Below, piece by piece: positions 35,383-46,689 of a stretch of DNA of 64,000 nucleotides. The notes beneath the pieces were generated by a model that was not told the DNA's origin, did not search any database, and saw only the letters and a list, made by a program, of their open reading frames with translations. The stretch comes from Nocardia farcinica (GTDB lineage: Bacteria > Actinomycetota > Actinomycetes > Mycobacteriales > Mycobacteriaceae), in contig NZ_LN868938.1 in NCBI RefSeq assembly GCF_001182745.1, positions 434,001-498,000 of the forward strand. Direction: 5' to 3'. Each line of letters starts with the position of its first letter. Position 1 is the first letter of the stretch. The position numbers were made by a program, and so were the translations under genes.

Positions 35383-36114
35383 TCAGTGGTCGCGCGTCTG
35401 GACGGCGGTGAAGGTCATCCGGTCACCGCGGTAGAGGGAGCGGCGGTGCTCGATCGGAACGCCGTCGGGATCGTAGGAGACGCGGTTGAGCAGGAACATC
35501 GGAGTGCGAGCGTCGGCGGTGAGCAGCGCGGCCTCGCGGGCGTCGGGCAGCGTCGTCTCGATGGTGTCCACCGCCCGGTCGAAAACGATGCCGCGGCGGC
35601 GGATCTCGGCGTACAGCGAGGCGGTGTGGTCGAAGGTCTCGACCAGTTCCGGGTACCGGTAGGCGGGCAGCCGGGTGGTCTCGAGGCCGACGCGCAGGTC
35701 GTCGGTGGTCAGCACGCGCTCGAGCTGGATCACCGGATCGCCCTCGGCGATGTGCAGGTCGCCGGCCAGCGCCGGGTCGGCGGTCAGCCGGGTCCAGCCG
35801 ACGAGGATGCGCCCGGCCCGATGTCCTTGCGCCAGTGCGGCTTCGGTGTAGGAGCCCAACGCCAGTGGCTGGACGAACTTCGGCCCGGCGACGACGGTGG
35901 CGCGGCCGCGCCGCTGGATGCGCCCGGCCAGCAGGAGTTCGCGCAGGGCCTGGCGGACGGTCTCGCGCGCCACGTCGAAGCGCAGGGCGAGCTCGCGTTC
36001 GGAGGGTACCGGGTCACCCTCGTCGAGTTCGTCGAGGAGTTTGTCCACCTGTGCACGCACGATCTGGTGCTTGAGGACGCGTGGTTCGGCGCGGGCGGTC
36101 ACTCGACCCAGCAT
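35383..36114 (-). CDS. phnF: GntR/HutC-family regulator, PhnF-like
   Basis: A 243-residue regulator with an N-terminal winged helix (PVPSERELALRFDVARETVRQAL near residues 35-58) and a C-terminal UTRA ligand domain. Length and layout fit PhnF of Mycobacterium smegmatis, which represses the phnDCE phosphonate/phosphate uptake genes. It diverges from the phosphonate operon, and TGGTCTATACCA sites of the PhnF kind lie 11 bases before its ATG and again before the operon. The ATG at 36114 could be replaced by a GTG four codons in. The ligand is unknown. Confidence 0.8.
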   Translation of the reverse strand: MLGRVTARAEPRVLKHQIVRAQVDKLLDELDEGDPVPSERELALRFDVARETVRQALRELLLAGRIQRRGRATVVAGPKFVQPLALGSYTEAALAQGHRAGRILVGWTRLTADPALAGDLHIAEGDPVIQLERVLTTDDLRVGLETTRLPAYRYPELVETFDHTASLYAEIRRRGIVFDRAVDTIETTLPDAREAALLTADARTPMFLLNRVSYDPDGVPIEHRRSLYRGDRMTFTAVQTRDH

Positions 36115-36124
36115 AGCCGGATTT

Positions 36125-36183
36125 TGGTCTATACCAAGAGTTCACCTGCGGTTCGCTCGACCGTCGACGGATGGTCTATACCA
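36125..36183. promoter_or_regulatory. Composite PhnF/PHO-box promoter of the phosphonate operon
   Basis: TGGTCTATACCA occurs at 36125-36136 and 36172-36183, starts 47 bases apart. It is the reverse complement of the reported M. smegmatis PhnF site and fits the HutC pattern GT-N-TA-N-AC. Between them GTTCACC (36140-36146), four bases, GTTCGCT (36151-36157) resembles the PHO box bound by RegX3/PhoP. The second PhnF site covers a likely -10 (TCTATA 36175-36180). The first lies near the start of the regulator gene. Phosphate starvation would activate and PhnF repress. Confidence 0.78.
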
Positions 36184-36267
36184 ATCGCCATCGTGGGGTG
36201 CGGCGCCGGCGGACCCGTGGCCGACCGGCGCCGAACTTCCGTTCACCCCTTACGGACTGGGACTCAG

Positions 36268-36945
36268 ATGACCGATATCGCTCTGGCCGTGCTGGACATG
36301 GCCGGCACCACCGTCACCGACGACGGCCTCGTCACGCGCGCCTTCGAGGAAGCCGCCACGGCCGCGGGCCTGCCGCCGGAGGGCGCGGAACGCGAGAACG
36401 CGCGCCGCTACGTGCTCGACACCATGGGCCAGTCGAAGATCGCGGTGTTCCGCGCGCTGTTCGCCGACGAGGAGCGCGCCCGGCGCGCCAATGCCGCGTT
36501 CGAGGCCGCCTACGCCCGATTCGTCGAGGACGGCGGCGTGCAGGCCCTACCCGGCGCGGCGGAGACGATCGCCGCGCTGCGCGACGGGGGGCTCACCGTC
36601 GCCTTGACCACCGGTTTCAGCTCCGCCACCCAGGACCGGATCCTCGACGTCCTGGGCTGGCGCGCCCTCGCCGACTTCGCCCTCGCCCCACCGGATGCCG
36701 GTCGCGGCAGGCCCATGCCCGACCTGGTGCTGGCGGCGGTCCTGCGCGCCGGGGTCGACGACGTGCGCCGGGTCGCCGTGGCCGGTGACACCGCCGGTGA
36801 CATCGAATCCGGCCGCCGCGCCGGCGCCACCATCCTGGCCGGCACGTTGACCGGCGCCCACGACGCGGACACGCTGCGCCGCGCCGGGGCCACCCACGTG
36901 CTCGACTCCGTCGCCGAACTGCCCGCCCTGTTGCTGCCCGCCTGA
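36268..36945 (+). CDS. Phosphonatase-like HAD hydrolase
   Basis: Probable C-P bond hydrolase acting on phosphonoacetaldehyde or a close relative such as its hydroxy form. The 225-residue HAD protein has the phosphonatase-type nucleophile motif LDMAGTT (Asp10, with Ala12 in place of the second Asp). In the cap domain MGQSKIAVFRAL places Lys57 where PhnX has its Schiff-base lysine. The C-terminal part has VAGDTAGDIESGRRAG. It belongs to the PhnX-like group (TIGR03351), which is not found with PhnW but with FAD oxidases and zinc dehydrogenases, as here. First gene of the operon. Confidence 0.88.
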   Translation: MTDIALAVLDMAGTTVTDDGLVTRAFEEAATAAGLPPEGAERENARRYVLDTMGQSKIAVFRALFADEERARRANAAFEAAYARFVEDGGVQALPGAAETIAALRDGGLTVALTTGFSSATQDRILDVLGWRALADFALAPPDAGRGRPMPDLVLAAVLRAGVDDVRRVAVAGDTAGDIESGRRAGATILAGTLTGAHDADTLRRAGATHVLDSVAELPALLLPA

Positions 36946-36972
36946 AACCTCTTCCACCGCAAGGAACTTCGC

Positions 36973-37938
36973 ATGAACATCCGCCGCTCCCGCCCGCTCG
37001 TCTCGCTGCTGGCCGGATTCGCCCTCGCGCTGTCGGCCTGTTCCGGCTCCGGCGCGGACTCCCGCGCGATCAACGACAGGGGCTTCCCCGAGACCCTGAC
37101 CCTGGCCGCCATCCCGGCCGAGAACTCGACCGACCTGAAGGCCAGCTACGATCCCGTCATCGCGCTGCTCGAACGCGAGACCGGCGCGAAGATCGACTTC
37201 GTGCAGGCGTCCGACTACGCGGGCGTGGTCGAGGGCATCATCGCGGGCAACGTCGACATGGCGTTCTTCGGCCCGTTCGCCTACGTCGTCGCCGGTGTCA
37301 ACGGCGCGAAGATGACCCCGCTGGGTGCGGTCGTGCAGGAACCCGGGGGCAAGCCCGGCTATCAGTCCTACGGCCTGGCCCGTTCCGACAACGCCGCGAT
37401 CGAGTCGTTGGCCGACTTCGCGGGCAAGAAGGTGTGTTTCGTCGATCCCAGCTCGACCTCCGGATTCCTCTATCCCACCGCGGGTCTGATCGAGCAGAAG
37501 GTCATCGCCTCCGGCGCGGAGGCCGACCTGTCCAAGGGGCTGACGCCGATCTACGCGGGCGGGCACGACGCCTCGGCGCTCTCGATCGCCGCCGGTGACT
37601 GCGACGCGGGCTTCGCCTTCGACACCATGGTCGACAAGACCCTCGTCGAGAAGGGCGACCTGGCGCCGGGCCAGTTGAAGACGGTGTGGAAGTCCGAGAC
37701 CATCGCGGGCTCGGTGTTCGCCGCCGCCGACGCGCTGGGCGCGGAGACCGTCGCGAAACTGCGGACGCTGTTCACCGAGAAGGTGAACGCCGACCACCTG
37801 CGCGGCGCCGGCCTGTGCACGGGCGAGTGCCGGATCACCGACGAACGCGCCTGGGGCGTGGTGCCCGCCGCCGACAGCGACTACGACGGTGTGCGGCACG
37901 TCTGCGAGGTCACCCGCTCCGACAAGTGCGCGGGCTGA
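36973..37938 (+). CDS. phnD: Phosphonate ABC transporter, substrate-binding lipoprotein
   Basis: Periplasm-side binding protein for phosphonates, 321 residues. The N-terminus is a lipoprotein signal with the lipobox LSAC at Cys23. The mature part starts the family fold (FPETLTLAAIPAENSTDLKA). Further on are VDMAFFGPFAYVV, KKVCFVDPSSTSGFLYP and HDASALSIAAGDCDAGFA, which line the ligand site. The ribosome binding site AAGGAA precedes ATG 36973, 27 bases after the hydrolase. PhnC follows five bases later. Which phosphonate it binds is not shown. Confidence 0.94.
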   Translation: MNIRRSRPLVSLLAGFALALSACSGSGADSRAINDRGFPETLTLAAIPAENSTDLKASYDPVIALLERETGAKIDFVQASDYAGVVEGIIAGNVDMAFFGPFAYVVAGVNGAKMTPLGAVVQEPGGKPGYQSYGLARSDNAAIESLADFAGKKVCFVDPSSTSGFLYPTAGLIEQKVIASGAEADLSKGLTPIYAGGHDASALSIAAGDCDAGFAFDTMVDKTLVEKGDLAPGQLKTVWKSETIAGSVFAAADALGAETVAKLRTLFTEKVNADHLRGAGLCTGECRITDERAWGVVPAADSDYDGVRHVCEVTRSDKCAG

Positions 37939-37943
37939 GCGAC

Positions 37944-38750
37944 GTGTCCGCCGATTCCCGCGCCGAGGTGGTGCTGCACGCCGAGGCGGTGACCAAGCGC
38001 TTCGGTGCCATCCTGGCGCTCGATGCGGTATCGATTTCCGTGCACCGCAGTGAACTCGTCGTCCTGCTGGGTCTGTCGGGCTCGGGCAAGTCGACGCTGC
38101 TGCGTTGCTTCAACGGCCTGCACCCGGTGACCTCCGGTGCGGTGACCGTGGCGGGCACGCGGGTGGACACCGCGCCGCGGGCCACCGTGCGCGCGCTGCG
38201 GCGCGACATCGGGTTCGTCTTCCAGCAGTTCAACCTCGTCGGGCGGTTGTCGTGCCTGGACAACGTGCTGCTGGGCGGGCTGGCCCGGCTGCGTCTGCCG
38301 CGCTACGGCGCGCTGACCTACCCGAAGCGGATGCGCGCGGAGGCCGTCGCGCACCTCGACCGGGTCGGGCTGGCCGATCTGGCGCACCGGCGCACCGACA
38401 CGCTCTCGGGTGGGCAGCAGCAGCGGGTGGCGATCGCGCGCACCCTCATGCAACGCCCGAAGCTGGTGCTGGCCGACGAGCCGGTCGCCTCGCTGGATCC
38501 GGAGAACGCCGGGGTGGTGATGGATCTGCTGTTCCGGATCTGCTTGGAGGACAACCTGACCGTGGTGTGCACGCTGCACCAGGTGGACCTGGCGCTGGGC
38601 TGGGCGCACCGGGTGATCGGATTGCGGGACGGCCGCAAGGTGTTCGACCGGCCCGCCGCCGGGCTGTCCCGCGACGAGGTCATGGCGATCTACCAGCGGG
38701 CCGAGGTCACCCGGTCGGCGCCCGCCGGACTGGCCGCGGGGGCGCTGTGA
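37944..38750 (+). CDS. phnC: Phosphonate ABC transporter, ATP-binding protein
   Basis: ATPase of the PhnCDE importer, 268 residues from GTG 37944. It has Walker A GLSGSGKSTLLR, Q-loop FVFQQFNLV, the signature LSGGQQQRVAIA, Walker B LVLADEPVASLDP and the switch histidine in CTLHQVDLAL. The start lies five bases after the phnD stop. Its own stop overlaps phnE in a GTGA arrangement. The last 18 residues are Ala-rich and beyond the family core. Confidence 0.94.
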   Translation: MSADSRAEVVLHAEAVTKRFGAILALDAVSISVHRSELVVLLGLSGSGKSTLLRCFNGLHPVTSGAVTVAGTRVDTAPRATVRALRRDIGFVFQQFNLVGRLSCLDNVLLGGLARLRLPRYGALTYPKRMRAEAVAHLDRVGLADLAHRRTDTLSGGQQQRVAIARTLMQRPKLVLADEPVASLDPENAGVVMDLLFRICLEDNLTVVCTLHQVDLALGWAHRVIGLRDGRKVFDRPAAGLSRDEVMAIYQRAEVTRSAPAGLAAGAL

Positions 38751-40345
38751 CCGCGACGCTCACCACACCGGGGCCCGTCCTGCCCGGCTCGCCGCCGCGG
38801 GCCGAGCGGGTGCGGGCGGTGCTGCTGCGGCTGCTCGGGGTGGGCGGTCTCGTGCTGACCCTGATCTCGGCCTGGTCGATCGATTTCGCCCCGGCCACCC
38901 TGCTGGACGGTCTCGACGACATGGCCGCGCTGCTCGAGCGGATGCTGCCGCCGCGACTGGACGATCCGCCGCGGATCTGGGCGCTCGCGGTGGAGACGCT
39001 GCTGATGGCGGTGCTTGGCACCGTGCTGGCGGCACTGGCCTCGATGCCGTTGGCGTTCCTGGCGGCACGCAACACCACCCCGCACCCGGCGGTGGCGGCG
39101 ATCGCGCGCGGGATCATCACCTTCTGCCGGGCCATGCCGGACCTGTTGTTCGCGGCGTTGCTGGTGCGCGCGCTCGGCATCGGTGTGCTGCCCGGCATTC
39201 TCGCGCTGGCGCTGCACTCCATCGGCATGCTCGGCAAGCTGTTCGCCGACGCGATCGAGCAGACCGATCCCGGCCCGCGCGAGGCCGCCCGGGCGGCGGG
39301 CGCCGGGTACCTGCGCGAGATGATCCACGCCGTGGTGCCGCAGACGGTCCCGTCCTGGATCGGCACGTTCGTCTATCGCGTCGACATCAACCTGCGGATC
39401 TCGGTGGTGCTCGGCTTCGTCGGCGCGGGCGGCATCGGTTTCGCGCTGCAGGATTCGTTGCGCGGGCTGGCCTATCCCCGCGCGCTGGGCATCGTGGCGG
39501 TGATCCTGGCGATCATCGCGGCGATGGAGGTGTTCGCGATCCTCGCGCGGCGGGTGCTGCTGAGTCCGGAGTCTCTCGGACCCCGGGCCGCCAGGGCGGC
39601 CCGCACGGCCTTCGGCGCGATCGCCGTGGCGGCCACGGTGGCCGCGCTGGTGGTGCTCGACGTCGATCCGGTGGAACTGCTGACCTGGCCTACCGCCGCC
39701 GTCGAGGTGTTCGGGCGGCTGCTGCCGCCGGATTTCGCCGCGCTGGGCCCGCAGTTGCTCGAGGCGGCCTGGCAGACGGTCGCGATCGCCGTGGTGGCGA
39801 CCGCGATCGGGGCGGTGCTGTCGGTGCCCGTCGGAATCCTCGCCGCCCGCACGGTGACTCCGCATCCGGCGGTGTACTGGGCGGCGCGGGCCTGGATCCT
39901 GGTCGTGCGCGCGATCCCGGAGCTGATCCTGGCCGTGATCTTCGTCGCCGCACTGGGCCTCGGGCCGATCGCGGGTACCTGCGCGCTGGCCATCGGCTCG
40001 GTCGGGCTGCTCGGCAAACTCGTCGCCGACGCCGTCGAGGAGATCGACACGGGCCCGCTCGAGGCGGTCCGCGCGCTCGGCGGCGGCTGGTGGAAGACGT
40101 TGGTGGCGGCGGTGATTCCGCAGGCGGTGCCCGCGCTGGTTGGTTCGACGCTCTACCTGCTCGACGTGAACATCCGCACCTCCACGATCCTGGGGATCGT
40201 GGGCGCGGGCGGGATCGGTTACCTGTTGTTCGAGTCGATCCGCACGCTCGAGTTCGGCGTCGCCGGCGCGATCGTGCTCGTCGTCTTCGCGCTCGTCTAC
40301 TTCATCGAAAGGCTCTCCGGATGGATTCGCTCCCAGGTGGTGTGA
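38747..40345 (+). CDS. phnE: Phosphonate ABC transporter permease, fused double-domain PhnE
   Basis: A 532-residue permease formed by two PhnE domains in tandem, about residues 25-275 and 285-530. Each has six hydrophobic helices and its own EAA loop: EAARAAGAGYLREMIHAVVPQ in the first and EAVRALGGGWWKTLVAAVIPQ in the second. Most bacteria have separate or single PhnE chains that dimerise, so the fused form would make the whole channel from one chain. GTG 38747 overlaps phnC by four bases, and the 3' end overlaps the dehydrogenase gene. Confidence 0.92.
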   Translation: MTATLTTPGPVLPGSPPRAERVRAVLLRLLGVGGLVLTLISAWSIDFAPATLLDGLDDMAALLERMLPPRLDDPPRIWALAVETLLMAVLGTVLAALASMPLAFLAARNTTPHPAVAAIARGIITFCRAMPDLLFAALLVRALGIGVLPGILALALHSIGMLGKLFADAIEQTDPGPREAARAAGAGYLREMIHAVVPQTVPSWIGTFVYRVDINLRISVVLGFVGAGGIGFALQDSLRGLAYPRALGIVAVILAIIAAMEVFAILARRVLLSPESLGPRAARAARTAFGAIAVAATVAALVVLDVDPVELLTWPTAAVEVFGRLLPPDFAALGPQLLEAAWQTVAIAVVATAIGAVLSVPVGILAARTVTPHPAVYWAARAWILVVRAIPELILAVIFVAALGLGPIAGTCALAIGSVGLLGKLVADAVEEIDTGPLEAVRALGGGWWKTLVAAVIPQAVPALVGSTLYLLDVNIRTSTILGIVGAGGIGYLLFESIRTLEFGVAGAIVLVVFALVYFIERLSGWIRSQVV

Positions 40346-41337
40346 CGCGCGCGGCGGTGTGGACCGGTGCCGGGGTCGCGGTCCGCGACGTGCCGGTGCC
40401 GCGCCTGGCGCCGGGCCAATCGCTGGTACGGGTCCGCCTCGCCACGGTGTGCGGCAGCGACCTGCACACCGTCGCGGGCCGGCGTGCGGCACCGTGCCCG
40501 TCGGTGCTCGGGCACGAGGCGGTCGGCGAGATCGTGGCCACCACGCCGCGGGCCGGGCACGGCGCGCCGGGACAGCGCGTCGTGTGGTCGGTGACGGCGG
40601 CGTGCGGGCGGTGCGCGCGGTGCCGCGCGGGCCGCACCGCCAAATGCCTGTCCGTGCGCAAGGTCGGGCACGAGGCCTTCGACGGCGACTGGCCGCTGTC
40701 GGGCTCCTACGCCCGCCATCTCGTCCTGCCCGCGGGCGTGCGCACGGTGGCGGTGCCCGACGCGGTGCCCGACGCGGTGGCGGCCCCGGCCGCCTGCGCG
40801 ACCGCCACGGTGATGGCCGCGCTGGAGGCGGCCGGTGACCTGGCCGGGCGGCGGGTGCTCGTCTACGGGGCGGGCATGCTCGGGTTGACCGCCGCCGCGG
40901 CCTGCGCGTACCGGGGCGCGCACGTCGCGGTACGCGACGTCGTCGCCGCGCGGGCGGCGTTGGCGGCGGGCTTCGGCGGCGGGGCCGACGACGGCCTGCC
41001 GGTGGACGCCGCGTTCGACTTCTCCGGCTCGTCCGCCGCCATCGCCGATGCGCTCACCCGGTTGGACATCGGCGGGGCGCTGGTGCTGGCCGGTTCGGTG
41101 GCGCCCGGTCCGCCGGTCCCGCTGGACGCGGAGCGGGTGGTGCGCCGCTGGTTGCGCATCGCGGGCGTGCACAACTACGAGCCGCGGCACCTGACCGACG
41201 CCGTCGACTTCCTCGCGGCGACGGTGGGCACCTACCCCTGGCATGAACTGGTCGCCGAGCCGCTGCCGCTCGACGACATCGCCGCCGCCCTGACCGGTCC
41301 GCCCGCCGGACGGACCCGCTGCGCCGTCGCACCCTGA
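40342..41337 (+). CDS. Zinc-dependent dehydrogenase associated with phosphonate catabolism (HpnZ-like)
   Basis: A 331-residue medium-chain dehydrogenase of the TIGR03366 type. It has the catalytic zinc ligands in TVCGSDLHT and VLGHEAVGE, structural zinc cysteines in CGRCARCRAGRTAKC, and the nucleotide fold beginning VLVYGAGMLGLTAA. GTG 40342 forms a GTGA overlap with phnE and has AGGTGG upstream. An ATG at 40321 is the alternative. The family name was given for its linkage to phosphonate genes. A role in oxidising an alcohol or hydroxyphosphonate intermediate is inferred. Confidence 0.85.
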   Translation: MTRAAVWTGAGVAVRDVPVPRLAPGQSLVRVRLATVCGSDLHTVAGRRAAPCPSVLGHEAVGEIVATTPRAGHGAPGQRVVWSVTAACGRCARCRAGRTAKCLSVRKVGHEAFDGDWPLSGSYARHLVLPAGVRTVAVPDAVPDAVAAPAACATATVMAALEAAGDLAGRRVLVYGAGMLGLTAAAACAYRGAHVAVRDVVAARAALAAGFGGGADDGLPVDAAFDFSGSSAAIADALTRLDIGGALVLAGSVAPGPPVPLDAERVVRRWLRIAGVHNYEPRHLTDAVDFLAATVGTYPWHELVAEPLPLDDIAAALTGPPAGRTRCAVAP

Positions 41338-41386
41338 CCCAAGCCGAGCAGGTTGCCGCTCAACGCCGCCACCGATGCCGCGGTAC

Positions 41387-41445
41387 TGGTCTATACCAAT
41401 TGTTCACGTGCCGTTCGCGGCGGGGACGCGCATAGGTCTAGACCA
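41387..41445 (+). promoter_or_regulatory. Second composite PhnF/PHO-box promoter, before the FAD oxidoreductase
   Basis: TGGTCTATACCA (41387-41398) and AGGTCTAGACCA (41434-41445) start 47 bases apart. Between them GTTCACG (41402-41408), four bases, GTTCGCG (41413-41419) forms a PHO-box-like direct repeat, 15 bases from the first site's start. All spacings equal those of the module at 36125-36183. The second site covers a likely -10 (TCTAGA 41437-41442), and the ATG follows at 41463. This ties the oxidoreductase gene to the phosphonate operon. Confidence 0.78.
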
Positions 41446-41462
41446 TTCGGCATCCTGGCGTC

Positions 41463-42584
41463 ATGCGAGTAACGATCATCGGTGGCGGCATTCTCGGCAC
41501 CGCGCACGCGCTGGCCGCGGTGCGCCGCGGACACGAGGTGGTGCAGCTGGAACGGGAACCGGAAGCGCGCGGCGCGACCGTGCGGAACTTCGGTCTGGTG
41601 TGGGTGTCGGGTCGTGCCGAGCACGAACTCGCGTCGACCCTGCGTTCCCGGGAGCTGTGGGAGGAACTGGGCGGCAAGGTGCCCGGCATCGGATTCCGTG
41701 CCAACGGCTCGATCACGCTGGTGCGCACCCCCGAGGAACTGGCCGTCGCCGAAGCCGCCGCGGCGGGGGCCTCCGCGGACGCGCGCGGGTTCCGCCTGCT
41801 CGAGCCGGAACAGGTCCGCGCGCTCAACCCCGCGTTGCGCGGCACGTATCTGGCCGGCCTGCACTGCGCGACCGACGCCGCGGTGGAATCCCGCCAGGCG
41901 CTGCCCGCGTTGCGCGCCTACCTCACCGGCACCGGGCGCTACACCTTCCACCCCGCCACCGAGGCCAGGTCCGTGGCCGGCTCATCGGCCACGGTTCTCG
42001 ACGACCACGGCCGCGTCCACGCGGGTGATCTGGTGCTGGTCTGCCCCGGCGCCACGCATTCCGGGCTGGTCCGCGAACTGGTCGGCGAGATCCCCGTGCG
42101 CCGCGTGCGCCTGCAGATGATGCAGACCGCGCCGCTGGGGGAGCCGCTGACCACCTCGATCGCCGACGGCGACAGCTTCCGCTACTACCCGGGTTTCGCC
42201 GGGCCCGCGGTCGAAGCGCTCGAGCGGGAGCAGTCCCAGGCCGCCACCGCCGCCGAGCACAAGATGCAGCTGCTGTGCGTGCAGCGCCTGCACGGCGGGC
42301 TCACCATCGGCGACACCCACGAATACACCGAGCCGTTCGCCTTCGACGTCGACGAGGCGCCCTACGAACACCTCACCGCGGTCACCGAGGAACTGCTCGG
42401 CCGCACCCTGCCGCCGGTGGTACGGCGCTGGGCCGGGGTGTACAGCCAGAGTGTCGACCCGGCGGCGATCGTCACGCGGGCGCGCGCCGATGAGCACGTG
42501 TGGGTGATCACCGGGCCGGGCGGTCGCGGCATGACCCTCGGACCCGCGCTCGGCGAGGAGACCGCCGAACTGCTCGGGCTCTGA
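41463..42584 (+). CDS. FAD-dependent aminophosphonate oxidoreductase (HpnW-like)
   Basis: A 373-residue DAO-family flavoprotein (TIGR03364 type). The FAD motif IIGGGILGTAHALAAVRRGHE stands at the N-terminus. The core includes RNFGLVWVSGRAE and GDLVLVCPGATHS, and the C-terminal ITGPGGRGMTLGPALGEETAELL closes the FAD site. Relatives are glycine- and amine-oxidising enzymes. Members near phosphonatase-like genes are proposed to deaminate an aminophosphonate to the aldehyde. It stands alone behind its own PhnF/PHO-box promoter. Confidence 0.87.
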   Translation: MRVTIIGGGILGTAHALAAVRRGHEVVQLEREPEARGATVRNFGLVWVSGRAEHELASTLRSRELWEELGGKVPGIGFRANGSITLVRTPEELAVAEAAAAGASADARGFRLLEPEQVRALNPALRGTYLAGLHCATDAAVESRQALPALRAYLTGTGRYTFHPATEARSVAGSSATVLDDHGRVHAGDLVLVCPGATHSGLVRELVGEIPVRRVRLQMMQTAPLGEPLTTSIADGDSFRYYPGFAGPAVEALEREQSQAATAAEHKMQLLCVQRLHGGLTIGDTHEYTEPFAFDVDEAPYEHLTAVTEELLGRTLPPVVRRWAGVYSQSVDPAAIVTRARADEHVWVITGPGGRGMTLGPALGEETAELLGL

Positions 42585-42654: not shown

Positions 42655-43467
42655 ATGGTGGCAGCACAGGACGGCGAACGGGGCGCGCACCACGTGCAGT
42701 CGCTGGATCGCGGTCTGGCCGTCATCCGCGCCTTCGACGCCGAGCATCCCGAGCTGACGCTGTCGGAGGTGGCCCGGCGGACCGGTCTGGCCAGGGCGGC
42801 GGCGCGCCGATTCCTGCTCACCCTGGCCGATCTCGGTTACGTGCGCACCGACGGCAAGAACTTCGCGCTGACGGCGCGGGTGCTCGAGCTCGGCTACGCC
42901 TACCTGTCGAGCATGGGTCTGCCGGACGTGGCGCAGCCGCACCTCGAGCAGCTCTCGCGCACGGTGGCGGAGTCGTCGTCGGTCTCGGTGCTCGACGGCG
43001 CCGACATCGTCTACGTGGCACGGGTGGCCGTCTCGCGGATCATGACGGTCCGCATCGACATCGGCACCCGCTTCCCCGCCTACGCCACGTCGATGGGTCA
43101 CGTGTTGCTGGCCGGGCTGACCCCCGACGAACTCGACGCCTATCTGGCCGCGACCACGTTGGCGCCGCGCACCCCGCACACCACGGTGTCGGAGGCGGCG
43201 TTGCGTGCGGAACTGGACGCCGTTCGCGCGCAAGGGTATTCGCTGGTCGACCAGGAACTCGAGGAGGGGCTGCGCTCGGTCGCCGCCCCGATCCGCGACC
43301 GCGCGGGCACGGTGATCGCCGCGGTGAACATCTCCACCCAGGCGACCCGGCACAGCGTCGCCTCGATCCGGGCGGATCTGGTTCCGCCGCTGCTGGCGGC
43401 GGCCGCGCGGATCGAGCAGGATCTGCGCAACACGAACGGCCCCGCCCGAGGTCGGGGCGGGGCCTGA
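42655..43467 (+). CDS. pcaR: IclR-family regulator, PcaR/PcaU type
   Basis: A 270-residue regulator with an N-terminal winged helix (LTLSEVARRTGLARAAARRFLLTLADLGYV near residues 34-64) and a C-terminal IclR effector domain with the PcaR/PobR-type opening VQSLDRGLAVIRAF. It sits next to the beta-ketoadipate genes, and IclR-style GTTC-N7-GAAC sites lie in the pcaI promoter 4 kb away, so it probably controls pcaIJF. Beta-ketoadipate is the usual ligand in the family. It is convergent with pcaD. Confidence 0.85.
   Translation: MVAAQDGERGAHHVQSLDRGLAVIRAFDAEHPELTLSEVARRTGLARAAARRFLLTLADLGYVRTDGKNFALTARVLELGYAYLSSMGLPDVAQPHLEQLSRTVAESSSVSVLDGADIVYVARVAVSRIMTVRIDIGTRFPAYATSMGHVLLAGLTPDELDAYLAATTLAPRTPHTTVSEAALRAELDAVRAQGYSLVDQELEEGLRSVAAPIRDRAGTVIAAVNISTQATRHSVASIRADLVPPLLAAAARIEQDLRNTNGPARGRGGA
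43438..43464. terminator. Hairpin at the end of the IclR gene
   Basis: GGCCCCGCCC (43438-43447) and GGGCGGGGCC (43455-43464) form a perfect 10-base-pair stem with a 7-base loop, lying over the last codons and just before the stop of the IclR gene. It faces the convergent pcaD gene 64 bases on, so it may stop transcripts from both sides. No T-run. Confidence 0.55.
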
Positions 43468-43527
43468 GCCCGGGCGGGCGGTAGCCGGGCCGGGTCGGGA
43501 TGTGGCGGCGCGGCGCCGGTGATGGGG

Positions 43528-44334
43528 CTATCCGACGCGGGTGAGCGAGTCCAGGAACGCGGCGAGGGCGTCGTCGAACGCCTCGGGCCGCTCCATGTTC
43601 GGCGTGTGTCCGGCCTCGTCGATCACGGTCAGGTGGGCGTCCGGGATGGTCGCGGCGAGATCGGCGCCGAGCACGCCCCGGTCGAACTGGTCCTCGGCAC
43701 CGACGATCACGAGGGCCGGCACGTCGAGTGTGCGCGCGACGCCGGTGTAGTCGCGCCGCTCGGCGCGCCCGCGCAGCGCGGCGGCGGCCCCCGCCGGATC
43801 GGCCGCGCGCATCATCGTGCGGGCCCGCTCGGCCACCGCGGGCCGCTGCGCGACGGTGCGCGGACTCAGTACCAGCGGCAGGAATTCCTCGGCGTAGTCC
43901 GCCACGCCGTCGGCCGCCAGCCGATCCGCCAACGCGAACCGGGATGCCTTGACCTCGGCGCTGTCGAGACCGGCGAACGTGTCCGACAGCACCAGCGCGC
44001 GCACCCGTCCGGGGTGGGCGGCGACGAAATCCAGCGCCACCTGCCCGCCCATCGAATACCCGGTCAGCACAACGGTGTCCACGTCGCACGCGGCCAGCAC
44101 GGCGGCCAGCGCGGCGCTGTGCGCGCCCATCGGCACCGTCGCCGAGGTCGCGGTGCTCGCCCCGAACCCCACCATGTCGACCGTGATCACCCGGTATCCG
44201 CGTGCGGTGAACCGGGCGACCTGCGGCGCCCACATCCGCTTGTCGAAGAGGAAACCGTGCACGAACACCAGGGCCGGGCCGGTCCCGTCGTCGGTGTAGC
44301 CCACCGGACCGGCGGGCGTGCGCAGCACCGCCAC
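43528..44334 (-). CDS. pcaD: Alpha/beta hydrolase, 3-oxoadipate enol-lactonase
   Basis: Opens 3-oxoadipate enol-lactone to 3-oxoadipate in the beta-ketoadipate pathway. The 268-residue hydrolase has the nucleophile elbow GYSMGG near residue 95, a VHGFLFDKRMW oxyanion region, and the late aspartate and histidine (VGAEDQFD, EAGHTPNMERP). It follows catC by two bases, which argues for the enol-lactonase role over another esterase. It is the last gene of the lysR-catB-catA-catC run. Confidence 0.85.
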   Translation of the reverse strand: MAVLRTPAGPVGYTDDGTGPALVFVHGFLFDKRMWAPQVARFTARGYRVITVDMVGFGASTATSATVPMGAHSAALAAVLAACDVDTVVLTGYSMGGQVALDFVAAHPGRVRALVLSDTFAGLDSAEVKASRFALADRLAADGVADYAEEFLPLVLSPRTVAQRPAVAERARTMMRAADPAGAAAALRGRAERRDYTGVARTLDVPALVIVGAEDQFDRGVLGADLAATIPDAHLTVIDEAGHTPNMERPEAFDDALAAFLDSLTRVG

Positions 44335-44336
44335 CC

Positions 44337-44621
44337 TCAGACCCCCGCGACCTTGGACGGATGGGTGGCCAGCGGGGTGACGTGGATGTCCATGTAGGGG
44401 AACAGCGGCAGCCCCGAGAGCAGTTCGTGCAGTTCGTCGTTGGACTCGACGTCGAAGATCGAGAAGTTGGAGTACTCACCCACGATGCGCCACAGCTGCG
44501 GCCATTTCCCGGCCCGTTGCAACTCCTGGCTGTAGGCCTTCTCCCGCGCCACGATCTCGGCGCGGGTGTCGGCGGGCAGGTCGTGGGGGATGCGGACATC
44601 CATCCGCACATGGAACAGCAT
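44337..44621 (-). CDS. catC: Muconolactone delta-isomerase
   Basis: Moves the double bond of muconolactone to give 3-oxoadipate enol-lactone. The 94-residue protein is full length and has MLFHVRMDVRIPHDLP, NDELHELLSGLPLFPYMDIHVTPLATHPS, which are typical of the family. It lies 63 bases after catA and two bases before pcaD. Confidence 0.95.
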   Translation of the reverse strand: MLFHVRMDVRIPHDLPADTRAEIVAREKAYSQELQRAGKWPQLWRIVGEYSNFSIFDVESNDELHELLSGLPLFPYMDIHVTPLATHPSKVAGV

Positions 44622-44684
44622 GGGTGAGTACTCCTCTGGGCAGGGCGCGGCCCGGCATCCGCGCCGCTGACGGTCGGTGAACGG

Positions 44685-46689
<2,005 letters not shown>

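Follow-up and report, generated by a model that had tools for sequence, protein, structure and literature searches.

The repressor gene phnF of Mycobacterium smegmatis and the divergent operon phnDCE reportedly share one bidirectional promoter, which is said to have been described by Gebhard and Cook in 2008 and by Gebhard et al. in 2014, with TGGTATAGACCA as the PhnF operator. Two PhnF binding sequences lie in this promoter, and expression goes up at low phosphate, according to the account in PMC7866108. For the phosphate response of actinobacteria, 11-nt repeats are described for Streptomyces PhoP, and for PolR of another actinobacterium the sequence is given as GTTCACnnnnnGTTCaC, with 32 bp protected (PMC6754071); RegX3 sites (PMC7884335) belong to the same GTTCAC type of 11-bp direct repeat, the PHO box. 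The PbfD oxidases, one of them annotated as TIGR03364, are also known already and yield phosphonoacetaldehyde, as PMC10590968 reports. Here we analyse a 64,000-nucleotide stretch of Nocardia farcinica (contig NZ_LN868938.1, positions 434,001 to 498,000; hereafter the window), which carries a phnF-like gntR gene, a divergent operon with phnX, phnDCE and an alcohol dehydrogenase gene (adh), and a separate gene, fad, for a flavin adenine dinucleotide (FAD)-dependent oxidoreductase. A control module with predicted PhnF operators and a PHO-box-like repeat stands before the phnX operon (module 1) and again before fad (module 2).

The locus resembles M. smegmatis phnF-phnDCE in its orthologous PhnF, its divergent PhnDCE operon and the two sites in the bidirectional promoter; unlike there, phnDCE has phnX on one side and adh on the other, and the separate fad carries a second module. 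Its repeats are like those of known PHO boxes but are sandwiched at a fixed distance between two predicted PhnF operators. As in the PbfD systems that occur with phnX alone, a TIGR03364 enzyme and a phosphonatase-like partner are present and no PhnW scores over the cut-off here, whereas fad in the window stands apart from phnX behind a predicted promoter of its own. Neither "GntR" nor "regulator" occurs in the main text of PMC10590968. Searches of open-licence papers showed no report of one fixed promoter plan shared by two PhnF clades, of a second captured module or of a PhnF regulon in Rhodococcus, and only an unrelated human-genetics match to the operator string. Many related bacteria have modules of either kind; what looks unusual is that a single repressor should have both, and this arrangement probably arose as the oxidase gene moved here together with its own switch. 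We consider it likely, judging from sequence, that both modules are PhnF/Pho promoters of one fixed plan, that their two units are expressed when phosphate is low and the repressor is released as well, and that fad is a captured cassette from the second of two PhnF lineages (clades A and B) answering to a single PhnF.

The two control modules and their relatives

Module 1 occupies 36125-36183 and module 2 occupies 41387-41445. Both hold two PhnF-type palindromes of 12 bp at a site-to-site distance of 47 bp, and a GTTCAC-N5-GTTCG repeat (36140-36155 and 41402-41417) that begins 15 bp from the start of the first site. An earlier note on this sequence had given these positions and spacings correctly. 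It had also called the modules identical, which overstates the likeness: 41 of their 59 bases agree, and the fourth site, AGGTCTAGACCA, differs at 2 of 12 positions from the other three, all of them TGGTCTATACCA. In the window, four palindrome sites were observed at up to one mismatch against 0.01 expected by chance. The repeat alone is weaker, with four window matches at the same tolerance against 1.12 expected, a count that 1 of 100 shuffles reached.

The modules account for three of the four places at which TGGTNTANACCA occurs in the 6.46-Mb genome; the fourth is within a likely coding sequence (locus L159), and the reversed control pattern has no match. The extra match was rejected as a further regulon member on account of its place inside a likely gene, and no other member was found in the genome by exact site. 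When sites with up to one mismatch were taken in, the 11-mer GGTCTADACCA was not enriched genome-wide (91 strand matches, against 191 for the control); the two modules stand out nevertheless because of the pairing of their sites. Among the 91 matches, no other site pair within 100 bp was seen by eye. The earlier note had proposed a regulon of two units and a genome check for further pairs; that check turned up no third module.

Table 1. Features of the locus, in window coordinates; bit scores are followed by cut-offs in brackets
Feature	Position	Strand	Remark
phnF-like gntR (GntR/UTRA)	35383..36102	-	listed open reading frame from ATG 36114; likely start GTG 36102-36100, putatively leaderless
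-10 of phnF promoter (putative), TATGCT	36110..36115	-	7 nt before GTG
Distal PhnF operator, module 1 (predicted)	36125..36136		TGGTCTATACCA, site search
PHO-box-like element, module 1	36140..36171	+	11-bp direct repeats GTTCAC / GTTCGC; by eye also a weak third unit
Proximal PhnF operator, module 1 (predicted)	36172..36183		TGGTCTATACCA, site search
-10 of phnX operon promoter (putative), CATCGT	36189..36194	+	
PhnX-like phosphonatase-like hydrolase gene	36268..36945	+	TIGR03351, 285.8 bits (218.9)
phnD-like gene, substrate-binding protein	36973..37938	+	over cut-off for TIGR01098, under it for PhnD equivalog TIGR03431
phnC, ATPase	37944..38750	+	TIGR02315, 269.5 (266.1)
phnE, permease	38747..40345	+	two PhnE units in a single reading frame; TIGR01097, 2 stretches
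adh, alcohol dehydrogenase (HpnZ)	40321..41337	+	TIGR03366, 426.8 (328.1)
44-bp patch	41338..41381		between adh stop and module 2; 43/44 bases match antisense of F420-dependent LLM oxidoreductase gene
Distal PhnF operator, module 2 (predicted)	41387..41398		TGGTCTATACCA
PHO-box-like element, module 2	41402..41433	+	
Proximal PhnF operator, module 2 (predicted)	41434..41445		AGGTCTAGACCA, form preceding fad in relatives
-10 of fad promoter (putative), CATCCT	41451..41456	+	6 nt before fad ATG; putatively leaderless
fad, FAD-dependent oxidoreductase (PbfD type)	41463..42584	+	TIGR03364, 392.8 (285.1); clade B by identity and promoter

The layout was then compared with that of relatives, using named loci that are the best 80 of 386; whether fad stands apart from phnX in other genera was judged within those 80. 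Three gene plans occur among them: plan A (gntR / phnX-phnDCE-adh) in 24, plan B (gntR / fad-phnX) in 51 and plan C, with both sets together, in 5. Plans A and B are the gene orders that characterise PhnF clades A and B. The loci yielded 79 distinct modules, counted as distinct sequences with operator pairs 40-65 bp apart; the set includes the window's phnX module and leaves out its fad module, as well as pairs spaced by 34, 36 or 70 bp where a locus has three or four sites. Every one of the 52 fad modules has its operators 47 bp apart, while the 27 phnX modules show 47 (9), 49 (1), 58 (14) or 59 bp (3). Since the distance from direct repeat to proximal operator is fixed (32 bp in 78 of 79), the distal operator is the moving part, mostly by 11 bp, which is one helical turn. 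In 75 of 79 modules a YANNNT hexamer lies 5-6 bp past the proximal operator, on its 3' side. Of the 52 fad modules, 49 have their start codon 6-7 nt after this hexamer, and 21 of the 25 phnX modules that have a -10 show an in-frame start at the same distance; the window's fad conforms to this geometry. The motifs stand out from general similarity because several columns between them are poorly conserved.

On the other side of the module, the layout is mirrored before phnF: the distal operator lies 30-34 bp before the phnF start codon, with YANNNT 6-7 nt before the start, in 49 of 80 loci (41 distinct sequences; plan A 16/24, plan B 31/51, plan C 2/5), and in the window through TATGCT and the GTG at 36102. 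We therefore read the common module as a leaderless promoter that works both ways, each direction having its own operator and the PHO box lying between the two. The 47-bp pair is present in 45 of the 56 fad-bearing named loci, with the distal site only in 10, all mycobacterial, and a contig end cutting the remaining one (L116). Of the plan A loci, 23 have a site pair, at 47, 49, 58 or 59 bp, and L048 has a single site.

Some mycobacterial loci vary further. Nine fad loci with the distal operator only (L066, L079, L088, L103, L109, L110, L111, L117 and L121) have some 600-700 bp from gntR to fad, and in L103 an HD-like reading frame apparently lies between the two genes, as judged by eye. In four Mycobacterium/Mycolicibacterium loci (L057, L068, L069 and L108) a third operator-like site stands directly before the distal one.

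The presumed regulators are both encoded in the genome. GntR matches M. smegmatis PhnF (3f8m) over its full length (residues 3-239, E 4e-106), has GntR and UTRA domains, and is the only close PhnF of the genome, the next match reaching 31% identity; as for M. smegmatis-type PhnF, two predicted operators lie in the promoter common to phnF and the divergent phnDCE-bearing operon. A RegX3 ortholog is present as well (match to 2oqr, E 3e-126); in a search with TIGR02154 the best match was MtrA, the second RegX3 and the third PrrA/PhoP-like. The repeat pattern GTTCACNNNNNGTTCR (GTTCACN5GTTCR) has 13 genome matches, against 0 for the control. Two of them are the modules, and one precedes pstS, where an open frame begins 59 nt and the likely signal-peptide start 170 nt after the match, so that the GTTCAC-type 11-bp direct repeat of the modules is of the same type as that at this genome's pstS. 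The remaining ten are at most candidate promoter elements; several of them overlap probable genes, in sense or antisense orientation. The PhnF-like repressor and the RegX3/PhoP-like activator with its PHO box, both postulated in the earlier note, thereby gain support from orthology and from the repeat before pstS.

Within PhnF, residues R50, T52, R54, G70 and T73 are invariant across the proteins compared, 20 from clade A and 45 from clade B. Contact of such residues with DNA follows from work on NagR/DasR, according to PMC4918961, to which the PhnF numbering was aligned by eye. Between the clades, the regions of the second helix, the recognition helix and the wing resemble each other closely, with differences at 63, 67 and 72; because these likely DNA-contact stretches are so similar, one PhnF may read both promoters.

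The sequences themselves establish the plan and that it is conserved, that PhnF is an ortholog and that RegX3 is present; from this we infer the following regulatory steps. The plan comprises a distal operator, a PHO-box element of 32 bp at the position of a -35 box, a proximal operator in the spacer, a YANNNT -10 and a transcription start at or near the start codon. When phosphate is low, RegX3~P would bind the direct repeats and recruit RNA polymerase, and PhnF on the proximal operator, between activator and -10, would block transcription until a ligand releases it. In module 1 the distal operator would play the equivalent role for the divergent phnF promoter, amounting to autoregulation; in module 2 no divergent gene is left, and no YANNNT is found at the position expected for a divergent phnF promoter. 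The clade A PhnF, the single close one here, would also read the clade B promoter, and the outcome would be two transcription units that each need low phosphate and repressor release. We do not favour a DNA loop that joins the two operators, since spacings of 47 and 58 bp correspond to about 4.5 and 5.5 turns, and such half-turn spacing would put the sites on opposite faces of the DNA.

Origin of the fad unit

In a GntR tree built from 70 of the 80 named loci, the window falls in clade A, a set of 21 rows with a Shimodaira-Hasegawa-like approximate likelihood ratio test (SH-aLRT) value of 99, and in the phnX tree it falls in the A+C set (SH-aLRT 97), its phnX on a long branch (0.42). Against congeneric fad genes in plan B order, the window's fad reaches up to 88% identity, and against the other FAD type about 31%. 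We read the window as a mosaic, in which a clade A operon is combined with a fad whose gene and promoter are both of the B type. A phnX-like gene over the cut-off occurs in 97 of 148 congeneric genomes and this fad in 94; both occur in 87, one partial phnX (G119) counted, and fad stands 25-87 bp before phnX in 86 of these, the sole exception being the genome of the window. The module pattern GGTNTANACCANNNGTTMAC has matches in 73 of 150 genomes, with two only in this genome. This pattern misses some modules, and 6 of its 74 matches are a different sequence, GGTGTAGACCAGCAGTTCAC, which was taken as chance and lies inside an open reading frame in one of the six (G007, locus L009).

The equal spacings and the 41 shared bases could suggest that module 2 is a copy of the phnX promoter made within this genome, and the earlier note had spoken of a combined duplication. 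Two observations largely refute such an origin and make it very improbable. First, the proximal site of module 2, GGTCTAGACCA, is the fad form, found at 100% in those 11 columns across the 52 distinct fad modules, whereas phnX modules mostly carry GGTCTATACCA or its reverse complement. Second, most DNA matches to fad loci of the genus set in exactly where the distal operator does, at 41387, and run through the promoter into fad; some matches extend up to 22 bases further, and those to loci without the module start later. At the other end, the great majority stop at the fad stop codon (42584) or no more than about 20 bases from it. The modules instead come from two promoter lineages, that of fad matching the one in which the module precedes the same fad gene.

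Between adh and module 2 lies the 44-bp patch, whose source is about 655 kb away, inside and antisense to a TIGR03619 F420-dependent LLM oxidoreductase gene; neither a tRNA nor an Rfam match was found at this source (L221). The patch looks like copied filler at a non-homologous joint, and its near-identity to the source suggests a fairly recent event.

Another TIGR03364 enzyme scored over the cut-off in 9 of 10 phnX-only (plan A) genomes, with 30-32% identity to the window's fad, and none did in G003; the phnX-only set comprises 11 genomes, of which ten were scanned for the other FAD type, plus G000, with G112 left out. The 4-kb loci of those nine enzymes contained no operator pair, and two had a single 9-of-10 site. 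In the genome of the window the clade B enzyme is the only TIGR03364 protein over the cut-off. We tentatively propose, at a little under an even chance, that a fad cassette reaching from distal operator to stop codon was captured behind the paralogous clade A operon by end joining, with the 44-bp patch copied in, that it replaced a lost, distantly related TIGR03364 oxidase, and that it came at once under the resident repressor, as the two PhnF lineages had kept the same operator code. If true, this would be a natural case of a regulon growing by moving a promoter together with its gene, and it would show how an enzyme gene can move and may stay under control.

Seven genomes have fad without a phnX over the cut-off, and in two of them (G110 and G129) gntR and the module adjoin fad. 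The other five have fad orthologs of 70-81% identity (L196, L197, L200, L201 and L202) with no gntR and no operator pair within the 9-kb stretch, L201 having one 9-of-10 site some 4 kb off. Module and PhnF thus tend to occur together; in the window, PhnF and the fad module are 5.3 kb apart.

Present use and the likely pathway

Intact sites need not mean that module 2 works, and fad might instead be carried on the upstream transcript, with the module a relic. Module 2 begins only 49 bp after the end of adh, a search of 41200-41600 gave no terminator-like site, and shuffled sequences fold as well as 41330-41462 does (z -0.93). Since the join seems fairly recent, the perfect sites also say less about whether the module is used today than such sites would in a locus of long standing. 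However, the parts of the promoter plan are all intact, including the -10 and the leaderless start, and we regard transcription by read-through past a dead module as unlikely, favouring a working fad promoter under PhnF.

In the pathway that we envisage, PhnCDE would import an aminophosphonate, the FAD oxidase would convert it to phosphonoacetaldehyde, the PhnX-like hydrolase would split this into acetaldehyde and phosphate, and the alcohol dehydrogenase would deal with the aldehyde. No PhnW over the cut-off was found in this genome, nor in any of 14 control genomes, so that its detection is unproven; because none was found, fad may be the main source of phosphonoacetaldehyde here. The genes could also serve phosphate scavenging or another phosphorus compound in place of aminophosphonates, which would leave the regulatory reading unchanged. 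M. smegmatis PhnDCE is indeed reported as a carrier of phosphate and not phosphonate in PMC7866108, and two proteins of the window fall short of their equivalog cut-offs: the PhnD-like protein scores 168.3 of 261.1 for TIGR03431, and the PhnX-like protein 72.2 of 220 for phosphonoacetaldehyde hydrolase TIGR01422. Against this, the hydrolase, dehydrogenase and oxidase each exceed the cut-off of their families (Table 1), and PbfD enzymes yield phosphonoacetaldehyde; a role without aminophosphonates thus seems improbable, and we retain aminophosphonate use as the pathway. The link of the oxidoreductase to phosphonate use, drawn in the earlier note, agrees with the TIGR03364 match and the PbfD biochemistry of PMC10590968, where the family link is already in print. 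Overall, the note's interpretation of the modules is partly supported.

Besides the apparent youth of the join, several points weigh against two working promoters of one plan and a captured fad. No sigma-70-type promoter was found in 41200-41600, and the window's phnX, unlike most relatives, has no in-frame start just after the -10, so that its leader would be some 65-70 nt. GntR misses the cut-off of the NCBI PhnF equivalog TIGR02325 (101.6 against 156.8), and clade A and clade B PhnF differ at wing positions 67 and 72. Because 10 of 56 fad loci show the distal site only, the proximal operator appears not always to be needed. Outside the 49 named loci with the mirrored layout before phnF, 15 have a site near phnF in another arrangement, 13 have no site within 200 bp and 3 have no usable match. 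The fad tree gave no well-supported small set around the window's fad, and the locus rows come from related species and are not independent draws.

The plan of repressor, activator, repressor and leaderless start offers a testable promoter layout for phosphonate and low-phosphate control in Nocardia, Rhodococcus and Mycolicibacterium. Directly 3' of fad, at 42655-46600, where no gene matched the locus stretches of relatives at above 45% identity, lie a PcaR-type IclR regulator and genes that by eye resemble those of aromatic degradation.

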